Source: Actinomycetota bacterium (GTDB lineage Bacteria; Actinomycetota; Actinomycetes; Actinomycetales; Kineosporiaceae). Taken from it: a DNA stretch of 33,059 nucleotides. The translations under genes were made by a program, and so were the position numbers. Within the stretch, counting starts at the first letter, position 1; the number at the start of each line of letters is the position of its first letter. Below are positions 1,548 to 33,059 of the stretch, in pieces. Below the pieces are notes generated by a model. The model had not been told where the DNA came from. It saw only the letters and a program-made list of their open reading frames with translations, and did not search any database. The stretch is taken from positions 1 to 33,059 of the forward strand of contig JAUPKQ010000244.1 in the NCBI GenBank assembly GCA_030837345.1, read 5' to 3'.

Positions 1548-5042
<3,495 letters not shown>

Positions 5043-5375
5043 GAGGGGTCCTTCCACGGGCCTGGCGGGCGTTACGTGCGCACACTGCGCCACCCGGGAG
5101 CAAGTCCACGGGTATAAGCACAGGTAGGCGCAAAGCGCAAGGCTACCCGCCGCAGGCATGGAAGTCCAATGCAGACCAAGGCCGCCCGAGCCGACACCGC
5201 CACGCCGCGGTCTGCCGACCCAAACGTTCGGCCGGGAAGAGACCCGGCGGCCTTGCTTGGACACGTCGAGGATGACTGGCGGTGAGCTCTTCGTCAAGAC
5301 CACCCGGGCCTTCAACCCATCGAAGGGCACACAGTGGAGTCACCTGGCGGGCCCATTCACCTCAGTTCATTACGC

Positions 5376-7820: not shown

Positions 7821-7942
7821 AGTGCTCTCCTAGATCAGAGTTGTGGTCGTCGGGCCGCGCCGGGCCCTGCCACGGATTCGGTCGGGGCATCCTGCCCCGG
7901 GGCCGTCTGTTCGACCGGCCCACGAGAATGACCAGACAGGGC

Positions 7943-8377
7943 CTAGCCCTCGACGGTGATGCCCATCGAGCGGGCGGTCCCTGCGATGATCTTCGAGGCC
8001 TGGTCGAGGTCGTTCGCGTTGAGGTCCTCAAGCTTCGTCTGGGCGATCTCGCGGACCTGGGCGGCGGTCAGACGGCCGACCTTGGTCTTGTGGGGCTCGC
8101 CGCTGCCCTTGGGGACGCCAGCGGCCTTCTTGATGAGTTCCGCGGCGGGCGGGGTCTTCGTGACGAAGGTGAAGGAGCGGTCCTCGTAGACCGTGATCTC
8201 CACCGGGACCACGTTGCCGCGCTGCCCCTCGGTCTGGGCGTTGTACGCCTTGCAGAACTCCATGATGTTGACGCCGTGCTGGCCCAACGCGGGACCGATC
8301 GGCGGCGCCGGCGTCGCGGCACCGGCGTTGATCTGCAGCTTGATCAGAGCTGCGACCTTCTTCTTCTTGGGGGGCAT
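7943..8377 (-). CDS. rplK: 50S ribosomal protein L11
   Basis: L11 binds the GTPase-associated centre of 23S rRNA and is the thiopeptide target and stringent-response sensor region. The protein is 144 residues from [14 protein letters not shown]. The frame extends 10 codons upstream, but this ATG has AAGGA seven bases before it and gives the normal N-terminus. The proline-rich helix region [19 protein letters not shown] and the C-terminal [21 protein letters not shown] are typical. It heads rplK-rplA and lies 122 bases downstream of nusG, so it is probably in the secE-nusG transcript. Confidence 0.97.
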
Positions 8378-8499
8378 GTCCGGGTCCTTCTGGTTGCGTA
8401 GGTTCACCGTGTCGCTGTCACGGCGCTGGCCTCAGGCCGCCACGGGCGACACGAAGCCGTCCCGCGGAGTCTAGGTGATGACAAAGACCGCCGGAGTCG

Positions 8500-9405
8500 T
8501 CAGAGCTTGGCGACGTCGCTGAACGACAACTCGACCGGGGTCTCACGGCCAAAGATCGAGACCAGCACCTTGAGCTTCTGGGCGTCGGGGTTGATCTCGG
8601 AGATGGTGGCCGGGAGGGTCTCGAAGGGGCCTTCCATGACGGTGACGGTCTCGCCGATCTCGAAGTCGACGAGCTTGACCTCGGCCTTCGACGGCTTCGA
8701 CGAACCCTCGGCCGGCTGGAGAGACGGGGCGAGCATCGAGAAGACCTCGTCGGCGCTGAGCGGCACCGGCTGGTGGGTGTGGCCGACGAACCCGGTCACC
8801 CCGGGGGTGTGCCGGACGGCGCCCCAGGACTCATCGCTGAGATCCATGCGGACCAGCACGTACCCCGGGATCCGCACCCGGCGTACCTGCTTGCGCTGGC
8901 CGTTCTTGATCTCGGTGACCTCTTCCATCGGAACCTCGACCTGGAAGATGTAATCCTCCATGTTGAGGCTCGTGATGCGGTTCTCGAGGTTGGCCTTGAC
9001 CCGGTTCTCGTACCCGGCGTAGGAGTGGATCACGTACCAGTCGCCGGGCATCCGCCGAAGCTGGGACTTGAACTCGGCGACCGGGTCCACAGAAGCGTCC
9101 GTCGCCGGGTCCTGGGGGGAGGACTCGTCGCCGTCCTCGTCGGACTCGGCGGCTTCGTCGTCGTCGGACTCGTCGGACTCGACGTCGGCGGCTTCGTCGG
9201 ACTCGACGTCGGCGGCTTCGTCGGACTCAGCGAATCCCTGGAGCGACGCCAGAGCGGGCTCTTCTTCGTCGTCGTCCTCCTCGACACCCCAGGCCGAGGC
9301 GACGACCTGGTCGGCGTCATCCGCCCAGGGCGCGGCGTCACCGTCGCGGGCGGCGGCCTCGTCGAGGTCGGGGTCCGCGGACGGGTGGGGGGTCTGCTCG
9401 GACAC
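8500..9405 (-). CDS. nusG: transcription termination/antitermination factor NusG with long acidic N-terminal extension
   Basis: NusG binds the RNA polymerase clamp and couples it to Rho or the ribosome. The core begins near residue 118 ([16 protein letters not shown], then [24 protein letters not shown] and TPGVTGFVG) and ends in a KOW domain ([28 protein letters not shown]). About 115 residues precede it, almost all Asp, Glu, Ser and Ala, and include two exact copies of SDEAADVE. Acidic extensions are known in actinobacterial NusG proteins, so this is expected in kind though long. The start is a GTG with AGTAGGG seven bases upstream. It follows secE by 60 bases. Confidence 0.96.
9175..9222 (-). 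repeat. two tandem 24-bp repeats inside nusG
   Basis: Two identical adjacent copies of a 24-base unit (9175-9198 and 9199-9222) encode SDEAADVE twice in the acidic extension of NusG. Being in frame and a multiple of three, the repeat can expand or contract without breaking the gene. Confidence 0.9.
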
Positions 9406-9465
9406 GCTCTAGCCCTACTTCCTGTGGAATGCTCGGTTCGGTCTGGACGGCGGTACGCCGATCGA

Positions 9466-9687
9466 TCAGGAGCCGCCGCCGAACACCCACAGCACGAGCT
9501 TGCCGAACCCGAAATCGAGAAGCGAGACGTAGGTCATCACGGCGAGCACGAAGACGAGCACCACGGACGTGTACGTGATCAGCTCTGACCGGGTGGGCCG
9601 GACGACCTTCTTGAGCTCTGCAACGATCTGACGGAGGAAGAGGCGCACGCCCCCGGGACGGCGCTTCGTCGCGGACGTTGTGGTCAC
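9466..9687 (-). CDS. secE: preprotein translocase subunit SecE
   Basis: Small essential subunit of the SecYEG channel. It has 73 residues from the chosen start. It shows the family layout of an amphipathic helix (LFLRQIVAELKKVVRPTRSE) followed by a single membrane span (about residues 38-60, TYTSVVLVFVLAVMTYVSLL). The open frame reaches back to a TTG at 9726 without a ribosome binding site. The GTG at 9687 has AGGTGAGG directly upstream and matches typical actinobacterial SecE length, so I use it. It lies between tRNA-Trp and nusG, the usual actinobacterial arrangement. Confidence 0.95.
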   Translation of the reverse strand: MTTTSATKRRPGGVRLFLRQIVAELKKVVRPTRSELITYTSVVLVFVLAVMTYVSLLDFGFGKLVLWVFGGGS

Positions 9688-9824
9688 GTGCCTCACCTGG
9701 TCGGTAGCTCGATGGTGGGTTGTCAACGCCGGGCTTCGACCCGGCCCTCGCGGGACGGACCGGCACCCGGCCGGCAGTGCTCGTGGCGCCTGGAACGAGG
9801 CGGATTCCCCCGGGTCTCACCCGA

Positions 9825-24042: not shown

Positions 24043-24666
24043 TCAGCGCCCCGCGAGCGCGGCACCGGCCCGCGCCCGGTTCAGGACGACGTTGAGCAGG
24101 CACAGGACGACCTGCTTCACGGACTCCCGGACACGCGCGTCGACGGCGACGACAGGCACGTGGAGGTCGACGTCGGTGGCGTCCCGCACCTCCTGGAGGG
24201 AGAGGCTCGGTCTGCCCTCGAACTGGTTGACGGCGACGACGAACGGCAACCCGATCTTCTCGAAGTAGTCCAGGGCGACGAAGCAGTCGGCCAGCATGCT
24301 CGTGTCGACGAGGACGACGCCTCCCAGCGCGCCGTTGGCCAGGTCGTTCCACATGAACCCGAACCGGTCCTGACCAGGCGTTCCGAACAGGTAGAGGATG
24401 ATGCTCTCGTCGATCGTGATGCGCCCGAAGTCCATCGCCACCGTCGTGGTGGTCTTGGATTCGCCCGCGGCTCCGGGGGTGTCGATCCCGGCGCCGACCG
24501 TGGTCATCGCGGCTTCCGTCGTCAAAGGCTCGATCTCGGAGAGAGCGCCGATCATGGTGGTCTTCCCCACCCCGAAGCCACCCGAGACAAGGATCTTCAC
24601 CGGGATGGGGGGCCGGCGTCTCGCCGGAGGAACCGGACCCGCGGTTCCGGTGACCGTGAGATCCAT
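24043..24666 (-). CDS. conservon GTP-binding protein (CvnD-like)
   Basis: Small Ras/Arf-like GTPase of the actinobacterial conservon family, 207 residues from the chosen start. The P-loop is GGFGVGKTT (residues 29-37); switch regions include VAMDFGRI and LFGTPGQDRF (the DxxG-equivalent, with a Thr-Pro-Gly), and the guanine motif is NQFEG instead of NKxD, typical for this family. It is the last of four conservon genes, 10 bases after the DUF742 stop. A GTG at 24693 overlapping that gene by 17 bases is an alternative start; neither has a strong ribosome binding site. In Streptomyces such proteins cycle on a membrane sensor complex with the kinase-like and roadblock partners. Confidence 0.92.
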   Translation of the reverse strand: MDLTVTGTAGPVPPARRRPPIPVKILVSGGFGVGKTTMIGALSEIEPLTTEAAMTTVGAGIDTPGAAGESKTTTTVAMDFGRITIDESIILYLFGTPGQDRFGFMWNDLANGALGGVVLVDTSMLADCFVALDYFEKIGLPFVVAVNQFEGRPSLSLQEVRDATDVDLHVPVVAVDARVRESVKQVVLCLLNVVLNRARAGAALAGR

Positions 24667-24676
24667 CCCGGAGGTC

Positions 24677-25219
24677 TCAGAGCGCAGCGACACCGGCGAT
24701 CAGCCTTTCGAGGAAGTGCACGTCTTCGGACTGGCGGACCGTGGCACGGCTCGCGTCCAGGAACCCCTCGTCGATCAGGTCGCCCACCAGCACGAGAGCG
24801 ACCTGGAGAGGTAGGTGGAGCCAGGCCGCGACCTCCGCGGTGGAACACGGGTCCGAGGCCAGCTGCACGATGCGGAGCCGTTCTTGACCCGCGGTGCTGG
24901 ACACCCGTACCGGGTGGATCCCCGTGGCCACGACGATCGTCTCCATCGCCACGTCGGCGGTCCTGGCCCGGGTCCGGCCTCCGGTGAGGAGGTACGGGCG
25001 CACCTCGCCGCGGATGCTCCCGGGATCGACGGACCCGGCATCGGCCGGTTCCCCCCCGGTGCCGGGTCCCCGTCCGCCGTCCGGCCGGACGTGCGCCCCG
25101 GTCCTGGTGGAGAAGGGCGGAGGCCAGACCGGACGGGCCCGGGCGGGTCCGTGGCCGGTCAGGAAGGGGCGGGCCAGGGGCTCATCGTCGTCCAGGGGGC
25201 CGTCCGCATCCCAGCTCAT
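24677..25219 (-). CDS. DUF742 conservon protein (CvnC-like)
   Basis: A 180-residue protein. The first 70 residues are a Pro/Gly/Arg-rich linker. The DUF742 domain starts at VRPYLLTGGRTRARTADVAM (about residue 74), continues with LRIVQLASDPCSTAEVAAWL (a winged-helix-like recognition segment) and ends with the LHLPLQVALVLVGDLIDEGF stretch. The partner in conservons is the roadblock protein and GTPase. The ATG has GGAGG six bases upstream. It lies 49 bases after the roadblock gene. Confidence 0.93.
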   Translation of the reverse strand: MSWDADGPLDDDEPLARPFLTGHGPARARPVWPPPFSTRTGAHVRPDGGRGPGTGGEPADAGSVDPGSIRGEVRPYLLTGGRTRARTADVAMETIVVATGIHPVRVSSTAGQERLRIVQLASDPCSTAEVAAWLHLPLQVALVLVGDLIDEGFLDASRATVRQSEDVHFLERLIAGVAAL

Positions 25220-25268
25220 TCTCTCCTCCGTCCGTTCACCGCCCGGTCAGGGCACACGGCGGCGCCGA

Positions 25269-25703
25269 TCACAGGACCAGGCTGGCCTTGAGCTCGATGA
25301 CGAGCTCGGGCGTCAGCAAGGCCCCGATCCGCTGCACGAGCATGGTCGCCTCGTAACCGACGAGACCGAGATCGCAGTCGGACGGCGTGATCACCCCGAG
25401 GCAGGATCCGCCGCTGATCTGTGACACCAGGAGATAGCCACTGTTGAACTCCGTGATCACCTGACGCAGCGACCCCTTGGACAACAGCCGTGAGGCGCTG
25501 AAGGCAAGGCTGGTCAGCCCTGAGATCATCGCGGCGAGCTTGTCGGCGTCCGACCGCTGCAACTGGGTGGAGGCCGCCATGAGCAGGCCGTCCGAGGACA
25601 CCGCCACGGCCTGCTCGACGCCCACCGTGCGCTGGACGAAGTTGTCCAGCAACCAGTTGACGTCCCGGACACCGCTGCTCACTTCCTGGGACTCGATACT
25701 CAT
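25269..25703 (-). CDS. roadblock/LC7 domain protein (CvnB-like)
   Basis: A 144-residue roadblock/LC7 fold protein, the class that acts as GTPase regulator or scaffold. Typical features are DVNWLLDNFVQRTVGVEQAV, VSSDGLLMAAS, DKLAAMISGLTSLAFSASRL and the C-terminal DLGLVGYEATMLVQRIGALL. It follows the sensor gene with no gap: the kinase stop at 25704 abuts this ATG at 25703, and GGAGGG lies within the end of the kinase gene. Translational coupling is therefore likely. Confidence 0.94.
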   Translation of the reverse strand: MSIESQEVSSGVRDVNWLLDNFVQRTVGVEQAVAVSSDGLLMAASTQLQRSDADKLAAMISGLTSLAFSASRLLSKGSLRQVITEFNSGYLLVSQISGGSCLGVITPSDCDLGLVGYEATMLVQRIGALLTPELVIELKASLVL

Positions 25704-28193
25704 TCACTCACCCTCCGGATACTGGCCGTTCATCGGATCGGACCGGTCGTCCGGCCCTGACTCGCTGATCGCCCGCCTCGCGGCCTGGACGTCCAACTGG
25801 AAACTGCGCAGCTGCCAGCGCAAGGACTCCGCCGCCCCCGGACTGTCGTCCGGCCGGGCGAGCACCGGATCGTCCGCGGGACCGAGGTCGGGGAGCTGGG
25901 CCCCTCGGACCCTGCGCGGAATCACCGGAGCGGACGACTCCGTCAGATCGATCACCCGGGAGGAGTCCTCCGGGCCGTCCCCGCCCATGGTTCGCCTCGA
26001 TCCGCCGAAGGCCGTCGTGACGGACGACGGCAGGGTCGGTGCCGGACCGGAGGGAACCGGCATCGGCATCGGCGCCGAAGGAACCTGGGCCGACGGCACG
26101 GGGGTGGGCCTGGTCGGTGTCTCCACGGACACCGGGCCCCCTGGGGGGAAGTCCCCAGGACCCACCGGGGGCCGCGGCGCGGCGGAGGGTGCGGAGGCCG
26201 ACCTCAGCGGCGGCACCGCCTGCGCCGACGGCCCGGGGTGCGGCAGTCCGGGGTGCGGCAGTCCGGGGTGCGGCGGCACGGCGTGCGGCGAGCCGTCCGA
26301 GGAGGACTGCGCGAGGCCGAGCACGGATTCGGGAAGCAGGATGGAGGCGGTGATACCCCGCCCGGCCGACGGTTCGAGGGTCGCCTCGATGCTCCGTCTC
26401 CGGGCGAGACGGCCGACGACGTGGAGCCCGAGCAGTTTGGCGTTGGTCCGGACACCGTCGGACCGGCGGATGCGCTGGTTGGCGTCCTCCAGCTCACGCT
26501 GGGTCATCCCGACACCCTGATCGATCACCCGGAGCCGGTACCCCTCGCGCACCCGCTGCCCGATCACCGTGACCTGCGTCGTCGGCGGTGAGAAGTGGGT
26601 GGCGTTCTCGACGAGTTCGGCGATGAGGTGGACGACGTCCGCGACGGCGGATCCGTTCACCAGGGCGTCCTCGATGTGGTGCAGGTCGACGCGGATGTAC
26701 TCCTCGATCTCCGACAGGGCGGCACGCACGACGTCGATCACCGATACCGGCCGCGACCAGGTCCGGGTCTGGTGCGCCCCGGCGAGCACGAGCATGCTCT
26801 CGGCGTTACGGCGGATGCGGGTCGTGGCGTGGTCGAGCCGGAACAGCTGCGACAGCACCTCGGGGTCCTGCTCCTTGCGTTCCAGTTCGGTGACGTAGGA
26901 GAGCATCCGGCCGAGCAGGTTCTGGTTGCGGCGGCCGAGGTTGACAAGCATCTCCGAGGTCTCGCGGTCGGCCCGGTGCTGCTCGATGGCCTGTCCGAGG
27001 GCGCTGTCCTGGAGCGTCGTCAGGGCCTCACCGAGATCGTGGAGCTCGTCACGGGTGCGGACGACGAGGGGAGGAAGAACGGGAGGCTCGTCCTCGGCGT
27101 CCATCGCCTTGATCTTCGCCAGGGCGTTGGGCAGGTGATCGGTCGCCGCGCGTTCGGCCTGGCGGATCAGGTGACGGATCGGCCGGACGATCCGGTGGAG
27201 AGCGAACACCATGAATCCGGCGAGGAGGAACAGCAGGGCGGCGGCGGCGGTCATCGTGATCCGCTGACGCTCCTCGGCCAGGCGCTCCTGGGTCCGGACA
27301 CGCTCGGCGATCCGCTTCTCCAGTTCGGCGACGATGTTGTCGATCCGATCGACCCCCGGCCTGTCGACGCCGCGGACGGCGCGGTCGGCCTCGGCGTAGT
27401 CGCGGCCGGAGGAGGCGAGGAATTTGTCGAGTGCCTGTTCGTAGGCGACGTCCGCGACGCGCTCCGCTTCCTCGAACAACTTGAGCTGCCTCTTGACCTC
27501 CGGATCGGGATCGGAGATGAGGAGCTGCGCGCAGAGGGAGTCGGTGATGCGGTCCTGCTCCTCCAGCCTCTCGACGAACTCGGCCCGGTCCCGGGGGTTG
27601 GCGCCGCGCAGGAGGAGGTTCTTCCACTCCTGGACCCGCTGGGTGAACTCGACCTGCATCTGGCGGGCGAGCAGCCCCTGGCGGACCTCACGCTGGAGGA
27701 TGCTGTCGAACCCTCCGGCGGTGGCCCTGGTCTCGGCGATGAGGACCCCCGACGCCACGACCAGGACGGCGAGGATGGCCGCGAGCAGCACCCCGAGCTT
27801 GACGCCGATGGTCACACGGAAGCGGACGCGCCGGCGGGTGGACCGGGCGGACGCCGGCGGGACGGACGGCAGAGGCAGGCCCGACGACGTCGCGGTCTCC
27901 TCCGCCGGGAGCGATCCGAGGAGGTCCCCGGGCATGCCCGGCGAGACGGGCGGGAGGCCGAACGGGCTGCCGGTACCGCTGCCGGGACGCCCCACCGACG
28001 TGACGGAGAGCCCCGGGACCAAGGTGCTGCCCGTGTCGGACGGCGTCCTGCCCTCGATCGCGCCGAAGAGACCGGCGGACCCGGGCGTCGCGTCGCCGAT
28101 GAGCGGGCCGGGGTCTCCCCCGAGCAGCGAGTGCTGGGCAGACGCCGCGGCGTCCTTGGCCCTGCGGGAACGAGACGATCGGACGAAGGTCAT
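25704..28193 (-). CDS. conservon sensor histidine-kinase-like protein (CvnA-like, nitrate/nitrite-sensor type)
   Basis: An 829-residue membrane protein. About 125 Pro/Ser/Gly-rich cytosolic residues lead to span 1 (about 127-152). An extracytoplasmic helical sensor region follows (QMQVEFTQRVQEWKNLLLRG, the NIT-type pattern), then span 2 (about 313-335) and a HAMP region (RIVRPIRHLIRQAERAA). LDHATTRIRRNAESMLVLAG replaces a classical H-box. The ATPase domain shows LIAELVENATHFSPP (N box), DQGVGM (G1), LGLHVVGRLARRR and GRGITASILLP. The last 200 residues are disordered and include the HPGLP repeats. The ATG overlaps the upstream stop (ATGA), with GGTGAG six bases before it. Such proteins may be pseudo-kinases that signal through roadblock/GTPase partners. 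Confidence 0.93.
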   Translation of the reverse strand: MTFVRSSRSRRAKDAAASAQHSLLGGDPGPLIGDATPGSAGLFGAIEGRTPSDTGSTLVPGLSVTSVGRPGSGTGSPFGLPPVSPGMPGDLLGSLPAEETATSSGLPLPSVPPASARSTRRRVRFRVTIGVKLGVLLAAILAVLVVASGVLIAETRATAGGFDSILQREVRQGLLARQMQVEFTQRVQEWKNLLLRGANPRDRAEFVERLEEQDRITDSLCAQLLISDPDPEVKRQLKLFEEAERVADVAYEQALDKFLASSGRDYAEADRAVRGVDRPGVDRIDNIVAELEKRIAERVRTQERLAEERQRITMTAAAALLFLLAGFMVFALHRIVRPIRHLIRQAERAATDHLPNALAKIKAMDAEDEPPVLPPLVVRTRDELHDLGEALTTLQDSALGQAIEQHRADRETSEMLVNLGRRNQNLLGRMLSYVTELERKEQDPEVLSQLFRLDHATTRIRRNAESMLVLAGAHQTRTWSRPVSVIDVVRAALSEIEEYIRVDLHHIEDALVNGSAVADVVHLIAELVENATHFSPPTTQVTVIGQRVREGYRLRVIDQGVGMTQRELEDANQRIRRSDGVRTNAKLLGLHVVGRLARRRSIEATLEPSAGRGITASILLPESVLGLAQSSSDGSPHAVPPHPGLPHPGLPHPGPSAQAVPPLRSASAPSAAPRPPVGPGDFPPGGPVSVETPTRPTPVPSAQVPSAPMPMPVPSGPAPTLPSSVTTAFGGSRRTMGGDGPEDSSRVIDLTESSAPVIPRRVRGAQLPDLGPADDPVLARPDDSPGAAESLRWQLRSFQLDVQAARRAISESGPDDRSDPMNGQYPEGE
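26235..26279 (-). repeat. three tandem 15-bp repeats in the conservon sensor tail
   Basis: Units of GGGGTGCGGCAGTCC at 26235 and 26250 and a diverged copy at 26265 encode repeats of the five residues HPGLP on the minus strand, within the disordered C-terminal tail. Confidence 0.85.
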
Positions 28194-28651
28194 CGCGCGC
28201 TCACCGTCCCCGACCACAAGAGTGCCGCCAGTTCCGCGGCGACCTCGGACGCGGATCCGGTGTCCTCGTCCGTGTCGACCGGATGGTCGGCGGCCCGCAC
28301 CAGCCCGGCGGTCACGCCGTCCGCGCCGTGCTCGATCCGCGCGGCCCAGCGGTGGTCCGGCCCCAGGGAGATCACGACGTCGAACCCCGGACGCCGGCAG
28401 GCGAGGGGCAGCAGCGCCCGGACCGAGGCCCGCAACACACCGTCAGGGTCGACGGGATGAGGATCATCCGCGGTCCTCGGCGACGGGCCCTCGAAAGGCA
28501 CGTTCACCGCGGCGTCCAGTCGTTGGGCGATGTCCGCGGTCCGTGAGAGCCGCTCGGCGACGGCACGCCGACGATCGGCGTACGTCCCCCGCCCGGGAAT
28601 GATGGTTGAACCTGCTGCCGTCGACAACCCGATCGGCCGATACCCAGCCAA
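28190..28651 (-). CDS. uncharacterised protein coupled to the conservon sensor gene
   Basis: A 153-residue protein of no family I recognise. The start is a TTG (LAGYRPIGLSTAAG) with TAAGGAG four bases upstream; the open frame upstream has no ribosome binding site. A helical segment YADRRRAVAERLSRTADIAQ is followed by a linker and a C-terminal alpha/beta part with FDVVISLGPDHRWAARIEHG and TGSASEVAAELAALLWSG. There is no membrane span or signal. Its stop overlaps the kinase ATG (ATGA), so it is the first gene of a five-gene operon and probably works with the conservon. A conservon usually begins with the sensor, so this extra lead gene is notable. Confidence 0.75.
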   Translation of the reverse strand: MAGYRPIGLSTAAGSTIIPGRGTYADRRRAVAERLSRTADIAQRLDAAVNVPFEGPSPRTADDPHPVDPDGVLRASVRALLPLACRRPGFDVVISLGPDHRWAARIEHGADGVTAGLVRAADHPVDTDEDTGSASEVAAELAALLWSGTVSAR

Positions 28652-30560: not shown

Positions 30561-31307
30561 GTGTTCTCCTTGGCCACCGATGCCGCGCCCGGACGATCCA
30601 ATGAGGACTTCGTCCTGGCAACCACCGATCTCGCCGTCGTCGTGGACGGCGCGGGCCCGGGCGACGACTGCGCCCACGGAGTGTCCTGGTACGCCCGGCA
30701 ACTCGCGGCCCAGACGATGTCCGCACTGATCGCCGAGCCCGATCTGTCCCTCGCGGACGGCCTGGCCCGGGGCATCCACGCGGTCGCCCGCCTGCACATC
30801 TACAGCTGCAACCTGTCGTCGGCCGAGACCCCCCGGGCCTCCGTCGGGATCTTGCGGATCGGGACCGAGTCCGTCGACACCCTGACCCTGGGCGGATGCA
30901 CGGTCGTCGTCGACACCGACGCCGGCCCCCAGATCACCTCCGACCACCGGGCCGGCGCCCCGGCCGCGGCCTCCGACCCGAAGATCGTCGCAAGCGGCGC
31001 CCTGTGCAACAGCTACCCGTACACCTGGGTCAGGCGCGCGGCGGTCCTGTCGGACGGCGCGAGCTGGCTCGTCGACCAGGCCTCCGGCTACGACTGGCCG
31101 CTCTACCTCGACCTGCTCGACCAGCACGGACCCGCGGGGCTCATCCAGCACGTGCGGTCCGTCGAGGACTCCGATCCCACGGGTACCCAGTACCACCGGG
31201 CGGAACTCCAGGACGACGCCTCCATCGCCCACGCCGTCCTCACCGGGCGGTCCCACCGCTCCACCGGCCCCGACTCCCCGCTGGATCTCTCCCGCACGGA
31301 GTCGTGA
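30561..31307 (+). CDS. PP2C-family protein phosphatase
   Basis: Metal-dependent Ser/Thr phosphatase domain of 248 residues with nothing else attached. The metal ligands appear in order: RSNEDFVLA (NED), VVVDGAGPGD (DG), VLSDGAS (SDG) and QDDASIAHAVL (the DD/DN pair near the C-terminus). The spacing fits the PPM fold. There is no membrane span, sensor domain or neighbouring kinase, so the substrate is unknown; it may act on a Ser/Thr-kinase target or an anti-sigma antagonist. The start is a GTG; purines upstream (GAAGAAAGC) give only weak support. It is convergent with the GH26 gene. Confidence 0.85.
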   Translation: MFSLATDAAPGRSNEDFVLATTDLAVVVDGAGPGDDCAHGVSWYARQLAAQTMSALIAEPDLSLADGLARGIHAVARLHIYSCNLSSAETPRASVGILRIGTESVDTLTLGGCTVVVDTDAGPQITSDHRAGAPAAASDPKIVASGALCNSYPYTWVRRAAVLSDGASWLVDQASGYDWPLYLDLLDQHGPAGLIQHVRSVEDSDPTGTQYHRAELQDDASIAHAVLTGRSHRSTGPDSPLDLSRTES

Positions 31308-31367: not shown

Positions 31368-33059
31368 TCAGCCCTTGCGGTTACCCCACTTCAGACCGGG
31401 GTAGACCTCGGCGGACTTCGGGTTGGCACCCTTGCCGTAGATCGTGAACCCCTCGTTGCCGCCGTGGACGACGTTGAAGTACACCGAGTAGATCACCTTG
31501 CCCGAGGCGGCGCTGGGGATCTTCTCGCCGAGGCGCCAGGTCGCGCTGTTCGCGTGCTTGTTCATCCAGCCGTTGAAAGCCTTGATCCACTCAGGGTGGT
31601 CCTGGCCGGCCCCTTCGGGCTTGAGACCCCATTCGGGGAACGACAACGGCTTGCCGTGCTGCTTGGCGAACTGCCGCCACGACTCCGGCCCGAAGGGGTT
31701 ACCCAGGTCGTCACGGTCGTCCGACTCGGTGTTCCAGGCGGAGATACTCACCCGGGCGTCGCTGGAGCCGTCGTCGTAGTAGTCGGGGCCGATGACGTCG
31801 ACGACATTGTCGCCGGGGTACCAGTAACTGACCGGCAGGCCGGTGTGGTCACCGAAGTTGGGGGAGAACACCGCGTAGGACGTCGGCATCGCCTCGCGGT
31901 AGATCTTCACCATGCGGGCGAAGGCCTTCTTGTAGTCGGCCGAGTTCTCCTTGGTGACCATCCAGTTCTTGTACCAGTTGCCGTTCATCTCGTGGAACGG
32001 CCGGTAGAACGTCGGGCCCGTCGCGTTCTTGCGCGTCTCGGCGAGCACCTTGGCCGCGGCGCGCCAGCGGTCGTCGTACTCACCCCGCGCGGCGGCGGCG
32101 TAGTTCTCGTCGCTGTCGAGGACGGTCCCGCCGACCGCGATGTCCAGGGCGCCCTTCCAGCTCTCGTACTCGGACAGCCCGGAGAGCGTGCGCTGAACCT
32201 CGTCGCTGGTGTCCGCCCAGGTCGCGGCCACCGTGACGGGCTGCCCGACCCAGTCCTGGAACTTGCCGTCCGTCACACCGACCCCGGAAGCCCCCGCGTA
32301 CCAGCCGCCCGCGGCCTTCCCCCCGATCGCCGCCGGAGGCTGGGTCTTCGACGAGGTCGTCGACTTCGTGCTCGACGTCGTCGTGGTCGTCGTTGTGGTG
32401 CCCGACGGCGACCCGCTGGGCGAGCCGGACGGCGAGGGCGTCCCGGAGCCGGTCGGCGACTGCGTGGGGGTGTCCGTGGGTGACGGCGCCGGCTCGCTCG
32501 ACGACGACGTCGGGGAGGGGTCCCCGGTCGCCGACGTCAGGGAGGCCTCATCCTGCTTGATCTTGATCATGTCACCGAGCGGCAGGAGCCCGGTGATCGA
32601 GGCGACGACACCGATCGCGACGACAGAGGCCGCGAGCGCCGTCCCGTTCCGCACCCGCTGGTTGCGGCGGCGACCCGCGCGCTGCTCCCGGACGGCGGAC
32701 CGCGACGAGCGTGCGACATCGATTTCCAGGACGCCGTCGGACGTGGCCTCGGTCGCCCCCCTGGGCCGGATTCCCAGGTCCAGTTCGTCGGTGTACGGGC
32801 TACGGGCCAGCACGGCAGGGGGCGTGACAGGCGATGCGGCGGAGGCTGCGGAGGGGCCAGCGTCGGCGTACGGGCTACGGGCACCCCCGTCCACGGCCTG
32901 ACCCGCACCGTAGGGGCTGAGAGGAAGAGATCCGGTTCCCTGAGGGGCAACCGCATACGAACCGGTGGGGTAGGCGGTCGCGTAGGGACCGGTCGCGTAG
33001 GGACCGGTCGCGTAGGGACCGGTCGCGTACTGGGGCTCTGAGTAGGGGGCACCCGCGTA
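31368..33059 (-). CDS. membrane-anchored GH26 glycoside hydrolase (N-terminus off the right edge)
   Basis: At least 563 residues; the frame is open to the right edge, so the true start lies outside. A GTG at 32894 could be read as a start, but the 55 codons before it have the same Tyr/Pro/Gly-rich character, including three YATGP repeats, and no stop. The visible order is: a disordered cytosolic part with SPYxD motifs, a basic stretch (RRRNQRVR), one membrane span (about 138-162), a Ser/Thr/Pro linker of about 75 residues, and a GH26 domain. The acid/base Glu is in PFHEMNGNWYKNW (visible residue 357) and the nucleophile Glu in SFPEWGL (476). GH26 enzymes cut beta-mannan or mixed-linked beta-glucans; the substrate here is unknown. 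Type II topology places the domain outside. Confidence 0.88.
   Translation of the reverse strand, partial: YAGAPYSEPQYATGPYATGPYATGPYATAYPTGSYAVAPQGTGSLPLSPYGAGQAVDGGARSPYADAGPSAASAASPVTPPAVLARSPYTDELDLGIRPRGATEATSDGVLEIDVARSSRSAVREQRAGRRRNQRVRNGTALAASVVAIGVVASITGLLPLGDMIKIKQDEASLTSATGDPSPTSSSSEPAPSPTDTPTQSPTGSGTPSPSGSPSGSPSGTTTTTTTTSSTKSTTSSKTQPPAAIGGKAAGGWYAGASGVGVTDGKFQDWVGQPVTVAATWADTSDEVQRTLSGLSEYESWKGALDIAVGGTVLDSDENYAAAARGEYDDRWRAAAKVLAETRKNATGPTFYRPFHEMNGNWYKNWMVTKENSADYKKAFARMVKIYREAMPTSYAVFSPNFGDHTGLPVSYWYPGDNVVDVIGPDYYDDGSSDARVSISAWNTESDDRDDLGNPFGPESWRQFAKQHGKPLSFPEWGLKPEGAGQDHPEWIKAFNGWMNKHANSATWRLGEKIPSAASGKVIYSVYFNVVHGGNEGFTIYGKGANPKSAEVYPGLKWGNRKG
32982..33026 (-). repeat. three perfect 15-bp tandem repeats in the GH26 gene
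   Basis: GTAGGGACCGGTCGC occurs at 32982, 32997 and 33012 without change and encodes the five residues YATGP in the GH26 reading frame. The repeats are in frame with the downstream gene, which argues that the coding region extends beyond the window. Confidence 0.9.

Follow-up and report, generated by a model that had tools for sequence, protein, structure and literature searches.

The 33,059-bp contig JAUPKQ010000244.1 of a Kineosporiaceae genome (Actinomycetota, assembly GCA_030837345.1), referred to here as the window, ends in an open frame for a glycoside hydrolase of family 26 (GH26), in which the catalytic domain is preceded by a linker, a single hydrophobic span and a Tyr/Pro-rich tail. 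Long tails ahead of the span recur in many GH26 proteins of the Kineosporiaceae, and this family-wide pattern is a stronger and more interesting result than the window gene alone. The reading tentatively favoured here is that the window protein is a type II membrane protein with its GH26 domain at the outer membrane face, where it would cut the cell's own surface glycan, and that the disordered tail serves as a cytosolic tether. If this is correct, a membrane-spanning glycosidase whose cytosolic tail can reach about 850 amino acids (aa) would link cutting outside the cell to machinery inside it, an arrangement resembling that proposed for KORRIGAN and plant cellulose, and could help to explain the 11–13 GH26-like genes retained by genomes of one genus.

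The order of segments can be read directly from the sequence: the Tyr/Pro-rich tail is followed by one hydrophobic span, a Ser/Thr/Pro linker and the GH26 domain (Table 1). The latter is the sole Pfam family detected (PF02156, 41.1 bits versus a curated cut-off of 20.2); the protein lacks a GH9 domain, the family to which the plant enzyme KORRIGAN1, considered below, presumably belongs. This bears out the original prediction of a GH26 frame with such a tail and a single span that is still open where the window ends. As the window is the entire contig (G000:C82, in a genome of 4.35 Mb in 269 contigs), there is no sequence past position 33059, and the true start of the frame may lie beyond the contig end. 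The visible tail, residues 1–137, is 80% disorder-promoting and contains 11 Tyr and 16 Pro, and residues 163–250 of the linker contain 41 Ser or Thr and 13 Pro. The span was called from Kyte-Doolittle hydropathy, which reveals a single strong hydrophobic stretch with its best 19-mer at residues 141–159 (mean 2.27), and the basic sequence RRRNQRVR lies directly ahead of it. In a full-length model based on a shallow alignment of six rows, the predicted local distance difference test score (pLDDT) is below 50 at residues 1–123 and 157–276, with one helix at residues 121–157; because the pLDDT is low in parts of the catalytic domain as well, the model gives weak support for disorder.

The single span, its basic flank and a juxtamembrane likeness to the protein G003:C78, described below, support a predicted type II topology with the tail inside and the GH26 domain outside, in line with the placement originally proposed. 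A lipoprotein or a cleaved signal peptide was considered and rejected for the window protein, which has neither a lipobox nor an AxA motif after the span. The paralogs C213, C169 and C264 do show AxA after the span. The AxA test is crude, since many long-tailed frames have this motif within the 22 residues examined, and cleavage is possible in those.

The catalytic domain was modelled with a mean pLDDT of 90.8 from a 48-row alignment. Its closest solved fold is the lichenase CtLic26A (2cip_A; Z 24.3, rmsd 2.9 over 258 residues, 22% identity), followed by AlXyn26A (Z 21.9) and then by a β-1,3-xylanase and GH26 mannanases with Z of about 18–21. CtLic26A (PDB entries 2cip and 2bv9), which the alignment profile matches at the sequence level too, has solved chains comprising 273–284 residues of the catalytic domain, and the activity of the window protein is, by comparison, a prediction. 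With the GH26 mannanases BsMan26 (2qha/2whk) and CjMan26C (2vx4) the window protein shares the Glu positions, the HEMNG..W motif and a Tyr. The roles of Glu357 as acid/base and Glu476 as nucleophile are assigned from the GH26 family in general. The segment with the His typical of these mannanases is missing from the window row: one alignment column has His in 25 of 48 rows and a gap in 22, including that of the window, in a region where the alignment is loose. This column presumably corresponds to the mannanase active-site His, His143 of CjMan26A, and because of the gap a preference for mannan cannot be assumed. From these features the window protein is predicted to be a retaining β-glycanase. 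In the paralog G000:C13 (L006, 1090-2097) an Arg replaces the nucleophile Glu (VSRWG), and this protein is probably non-catalytic.

The spread of long tails was surveyed in 72 of 79 GH26 matches from the Kineosporiaceae, with tails measured from the earliest start codon in the open frame, so that their lengths are upper estimates. At least 100 aa precede the strongest span in 33 of the 72 frames. The G+C content at third codon positions (GC3) is at least 0.70 in 26 of these 33, at least two of which are doubtful (L133, which reads like an antisense frame, and C237, locus L014); the other seven, with GC3 below 0.70, are probably over-long. In 13 of the 33 long tails a unit of 4–30 residues is present in at least three tandem copies, as judged by a simple test without shuffled control. 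The longest tails, of 739–848 aa, belong to L130, L131, L132 and L138, with L175 added by length and tree. The first four, from four species, have a common start region, MP[HR]P...PRSRRE[LM]RELER, about 740–850 aa before the span. Between the tails of L131 and L138, substitutions at codon positions 1/2/3 number 98/98/183 (668 codons, 74% identical residues); three more distant pairs give 310/314/402, 224/201/323 and 221/228/350, the same third-position excess in weaker form. This excess indicates that the tails of L130, L131, L132 and L138 are translated and constrained as coding sequence.

To compare like with like, equal criteria were applied, across 54 loci, to GH26 proteins and to other proteins with a single span; the controls thus represent GH26 neighbourhoods and not a random sample. 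A stretch before the span of at least 100 aa that is at least 80% disorder-promoting is found in 15 of 45 GH26 proteins versus 0 of 29 controls (Fisher p 2.3e-4), and a stretch of 200 aa, by length alone, in 14 of 45 versus 0 of 29 (p 4.9e-4). A first version of the control, with sets picked by unequal rules, had given 17/47 versus 0/29. Outside the family, 20 frames were chosen by length (one by score), so that they show presence only. Among them, the f25 proteins L211, L214, L216 and L223 have 617, 533, 407 and 364 aa ahead of the span with GC3 of 0.77–0.86, and since these four length-selected proteins share it, the long-tailed layout is probably not confined to the Kineosporiaceae; several other outgroup frames have N-terminal signal-like stretches.

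Long-tailed GH26 proteins of the sister genus g3 are encoded within conserved exopolysaccharide clusters. All five g3 genomes surveyed (G002, G006, G008, G010 and G011) contain a GH26 protein with 271–407 aa before its span, near Wzz; by coordinates, these genes lie 3.5–4.5 kb from Wzz and 4.7–5.0 kb from Bac_transf, a polyprenyl sugar transferase. In G002:C59, a pair of GH26 genes, one of which encodes up to 399 aa ahead of the span, lies between the Wzz gene and a polyprenyl glycosylphosphotransferase gene (TIGR03025, 387.8 bits versus 295.6), in a block that also holds two GT2 genes, an epimerase and a nucleotidyl transferase. Parts of this block recur in G006, G008 and G011. In G003:C88 the distances from a GH26 gene to Wzz and Bac_transf are 12 and 8 kb, respectively; the encoded protein has 46 aa ahead of the span and a lipobox-like motif.

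According to the proposed mechanism, the window protein would be a GH26 β-glycanase tethered to the outside of the cytoplasmic membrane. The signal-anchor would keep the tail in the cytosol, and the Ser/Thr/Pro linker would extend the catalytic barrel into the cell wall. The catalytic domain may cut a cell-surface β-glycan, with the cell's own exopolysaccharide or a spore or hyphal matrix being likelier than foreign mannan. The disordered tail would be a flexible tether, which may cluster the enzyme or connect it with the machinery of glycan export or with a polar scaffold. The repeats of the tail change fast and may preserve length and stickiness, not exact sequence. A docking or clustering segment would fit the long, fast-evolving, repeat-rich tails seen in many members. 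A glycan made by the cell itself is suggested as substrate by the g3 clusters and, for the window protein, by analogy with them. As the scan of neighbours revealed neither Wzz nor a sugar transferase, a coupling of the window protein to glycan synthesis can be proposed by this analogy only; the internal partner that the original prediction envisaged thus has a parallel in the sister genus and no counterpart in evidence at the locus itself.

Several observations weigh against this reading. No exopolysaccharide evidence was located at the window locus: the eight neighbours scanned include no glycosyltransferase, Wzx, Wzy or Wzz, and the upstream side of the gene falls outside the contig. The window clade forms a branch separate from the cluster-borne proteins, to whose domains its own is 28–33% identical. 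Within this clade the long tail is not constant: about 26 aa lie ahead of the span in C216 and about 59 in G003:C11, and the tail of C237 is ambiguous, with 27 to 140 aa depending on the start and GC3 of 0.72–0.81 along the stretch. At a length of 100 aa alone, GH26 proteins and controls are not clearly separated (18/45 versus 6/29, p 0.13). On a 71-row tree, the long or short tail label requires 17 changes, at least 15 of them forced by starred branches, which rules out a single origin of long tails. Shuffling the labels gives a mean of 23.7 changes, and 1 of 500 shuffles is as low as 17; as far as the tree can tell, tail length is labile yet clustered. The YATGP units of the window tail are identical in DNA, as expected of recent slippage. 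A passive tail would fit the lability of tail length as well.

A surface-anchored nutrient hydrolase, which cuts mixed-linkage glucan, xylan or mannan of plants or fungi near the cell and carries a passive, drifting tail, is a serious rival and quite possible. The labile tail length and the top folds, a lichenase and a mixed-linkage xylanase, both agree with it, and most of the scanned neighbours of the window gene and of five relatives are unrelated to glycan synthesis. In addition, a GH48 cellulase fragment is encoded about 200 bp downstream of C216 (L011), on the same strand, and a GH3-CBM2 protein about 6 kb from the GH26 gene of C237; these two neighbours likewise weigh against a role in the processing of self-made glycan. 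However, a nutrient hydrolase leaves unexplained both the excess of disordered tails in GH26 proteins over neighbouring single-span proteins and the Wzz-Bac_transf clusters, and the scanned neighbours include no recognisable sugar transporter operon.

A more elaborate possibility arises from the exopolysaccharide cluster L231. It encodes a seven-span protein without family match and a 640-aa Wzz/tyrosine-kinase-like protein (3354-5147 and 7898-9817), both of which end in Tyr/Gly/Pro/Arg-rich tails similar, by eye, to the GH26 tail. The kinase matches of the 640-aa protein are below their cut-offs, and in the authors' reading the seven-span protein is flippase-like. On the strength of these similar tails, the long, disordered, Tyr/Pro/Arg-rich cytosolic tails of a class of transmembrane actinomycete GH26 enzymes could be imagined as a condensing and Tyr-phosphorylation platform that co-assembles synthesis, export and trimming outside the cell, with the window protein as a dispersed member; such a platform is considered improbable.

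The tether reading presupposes that the window tail is translated, and here the start codon is of importance. The tail contains a YATGP array and three SPY copies, as had been claimed; the SPYxD form, part of the same claim, is present in two of the three copies, the first being SPYGA. In shuffles of the first 60 residues, three ATGPY copies were reached in 0 of 100,000 cases, and in shuffles of the first 137 residues, three SPY copies were reached in 17 of 100,000. The contention that the full array is longer is not borne out, as the final 10 residues at the contig edge, YAGAPYSEPQ, already fall outside the YATGP unit. To assess coding, codon log-odds (natural log) were derived from 14 other genes called in the window and compared among six frames. 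The GH26 frame scores best of six in all five tail and span blocks tested, with +0.154 per codon for block 33059-32895 (five other frames −0.23 to −0.67) and +0.088 for block 32894-32700 (−0.12 to −0.52 in other frames). In the linker block 32549-32340 the test fails, with −0.052 versus +0.484 for the best other frame and two frames scoring higher; this failure in the low-complexity linker between span and domain shows the limit of the test. Overall, the indications that the tail is coding are positive but weak.

An inner start at residue 56, 83 or 136, where in-frame start codons exist, would give a shorter tail, or none if translation began at residue 136. Such a start would agree with the short tail of C216 and with the GC3, which is 0.97 in the linker and drops towards the N-terminus, with 0.80 at 32894-32700 and 0.55 at 32954-32895; at 33059-32895 it is 0.71, versus 0.67 and 0.72 in the other two minus-strand frames, without discrimination. 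It is nevertheless unlikely, given the codon scores, although these fail in the linker, and given the position of the first SPY repeat ahead of residue 56. Moreover, when the six closest proteins are aligned, the juxtamembrane stretch at about residues 115–137, VARSSRSAVREQRAGRRRNQRVR, aligns with VAPRSTARAQRAGKRRVARAR of G003:C78, and this match at the protein level makes a start at residue 136 unlikely. With a start at residue 56 (32894), a tail of about 82 aa would still remain, compared with at least 100 aa of coding, disorder-rich sequence in the long-tailed type II GH26 group proposed here. An assembly error driven by the repeat, by which the Tyr/Pro segment would be part of another gene, is very improbable: the contig does end 30 bp past the array, but the genome contains no second copy of either the repeat (with up to 2 mismatches) or the terminal 30 bp (up to 3 mismatches), and the SPY copies run on past the array to residue 89.

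Table 1. Positions of the GH26 frame and its features in the window
Feature	Position	Strand	Details
Whole frame	31368..33059	−	563 aa, 5'-open at contig end; stop codon 31368-31370
YATGP array	32975..33029	−	15-bp unit, 3.7 copies, 100% matches
Tail, predicted cytosolic and disordered	32649..33059	−	residues 1–137, up to contig end
SPY copy 1 (SPYGA)	32910..32918	−	
Most upstream in-frame start codon within contig	32892..32894	−	GTG, residue 56
SPY copy 2 (SPYAD)	32868..32876	−	
SPY copy 3 (SPYTD)	32793..32801	−	
Predicted transmembrane signal-anchor	32583..32648	−	about residues 138–159, from hydropathy; one model helix, 121–157
Ser/Thr/Pro-rich linker, predicted extracytoplasmic	32310..32582	−	about residues 160–250
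GH26 catalytic domain	31371..32309	−	about residues 251–563
Predicted acid/base Glu357 (HEMNG)	31989..31991	−	Glu in 48/48 rows
Predicted nucleophile Glu476 (PEWG)	31632..31634	−	Glu in 47/48 rows

The genome of the window contains 11 matches to the GH26 domain of the window protein, itself included, the nearest paralogs being C216 (68% identical) and C237 (66%). G003 holds three close relatives, which are 64, 58 and 58% identical; of these, G003:C53 has about 145 aa ahead of its span, including a TRRSEG tandem, and G003:C78 has up to 223 aa. In a wider search of contigs, the best 80 of 267 matches (79 loci) include three from Kineosporiaceae MAG-70; the others are distant, the next match being 30% identical. 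The pattern TAYGCNACNGGNCCNTAYGC was found only at the window array in the 13 family genomes searched.

Gene neighbourhoods were scanned with Pfam for chosen frames, eight in the window and 24 beside the five closest relatives. Next to the GH26 gene of the window lies a gene at 30561-31304 without Pfam match, which has relatives in 4 of the 13 family genomes, its own included, and is uninformative for the GH26 locus. Its relative in G001 (L123/L126, G001:C63:834-1679) matches in two pieces, one with an in-frame TGA. Other neighbours are a frame with a DUF695 match below cut-off, a histidine kinase and an ATP_bind_1 protein. An aminotransferase, nusG, rpoB and the start of rpoC are located at the far end, and the presence of rpoB, rpoC and nusG indicates that the contig is chromosomal. 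A plasmid origin was considered and rejected: nine plasmid records matched, the top one with 29% identity over 62% of the query. The window protein has no matches among phage records. On the minus strand at 24046-28217, an HATPase_c histidine kinase, two small frames and the ATP_bind_1 protein are arranged in series, a row which we take to resemble an actinobacterial conservon.

Among the 269 contigs of this genome, a fragmented assembly, none with a GH26 gene also has a Wzz or Bac_transf match; Wzz is found on C267 and C5, and Bac_transf on C267, C241 and C234. Beside the five nearest relatives, the first 18 frames scanned include no Wzz, Wzx, Wzy or glycosyltransferase, and six more frames include one GT4 near C237 and one CDP-alcohol phosphatidyltransferase. 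Most of the 24 frames are unrelated to glycans, with three exceptions, at C216 and C237. The GT4 glycosyltransferase gene at C237 (L014, 2857-3960) is about 4 kb from the GH26 gene, and together with the CDP-alcohol phosphatidyltransferase gene a few kb away it may form a glycolipid locus (L014, 2857-6568). The GH48 fragment near C216 (L011, 2-1165) carries a Big_7 domain and is cut by the contig end.

The nearest working model for a tethered GH26 enzyme would be plant KORRIGAN1, by analogy. In the available part of its description (PMC4226561), it is a single-span membrane β-glucanase with a cytosolic N-terminus and an extracellular catalytic domain, which binds cellulose synthases; this contact required the span and persisted in constructs that lacked the tail, which there measures 69 aa. 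Unlike the window protein, KORRIGAN1 belongs to another kingdom and another glycoside hydrolase family, so that the two are alike in architecture only. In Actinoplanes missouriensis, the GH26 protein WpsE is encoded in a Wzx/Wzy cluster, and the authors (2026) knew of no characterised Wzx/Wzy cluster with GH26; the accessible portion of their report lists WpsG, WpsJ and WpsK as having TMHMM spans, with WpsE not among them, and describes no WpsE tail (PMC13390465). The Streptomyces GH6 enzyme CslZ is a membrane-associated glucanase encoded beside the glycan synthase CslA/GlxA. It differs in being a lipoprotein of another glycoside hydrolase family, and the available text mentions no cytosolic tail (PMC9040799). 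GimA and GimB were considered as family relatives and rejected, as both have a GH5 domain and not GH26 in the part of the report available (PMC12691653). In the open-access literature searched, neither GH26 together with transmembrane and intrinsically disordered segments nor GH26 with Kineosporia was found.

A few further sequence features of the GH26 proteins may be mentioned. The f25 proteins L214 and L223 have the stretch LP[HN]R[VI]TDWIIEHWGA[KR] in common, immediately ahead of the span. In C185 (L037, 1741-3414), a same-strand UDP-GlcNAc 2-epimerase gene is followed after about 57 bp by the start of the GH26 frame, within which the contig stops; an amidase gene lies on the opposite strand. 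Finally, a basic SRR.[LM]RE-like stretch occurs at the start of the tail or within it in L130, L131, L132, L138, L034 and L038, and may be a short linear motif recognised by a cytosolic partner.

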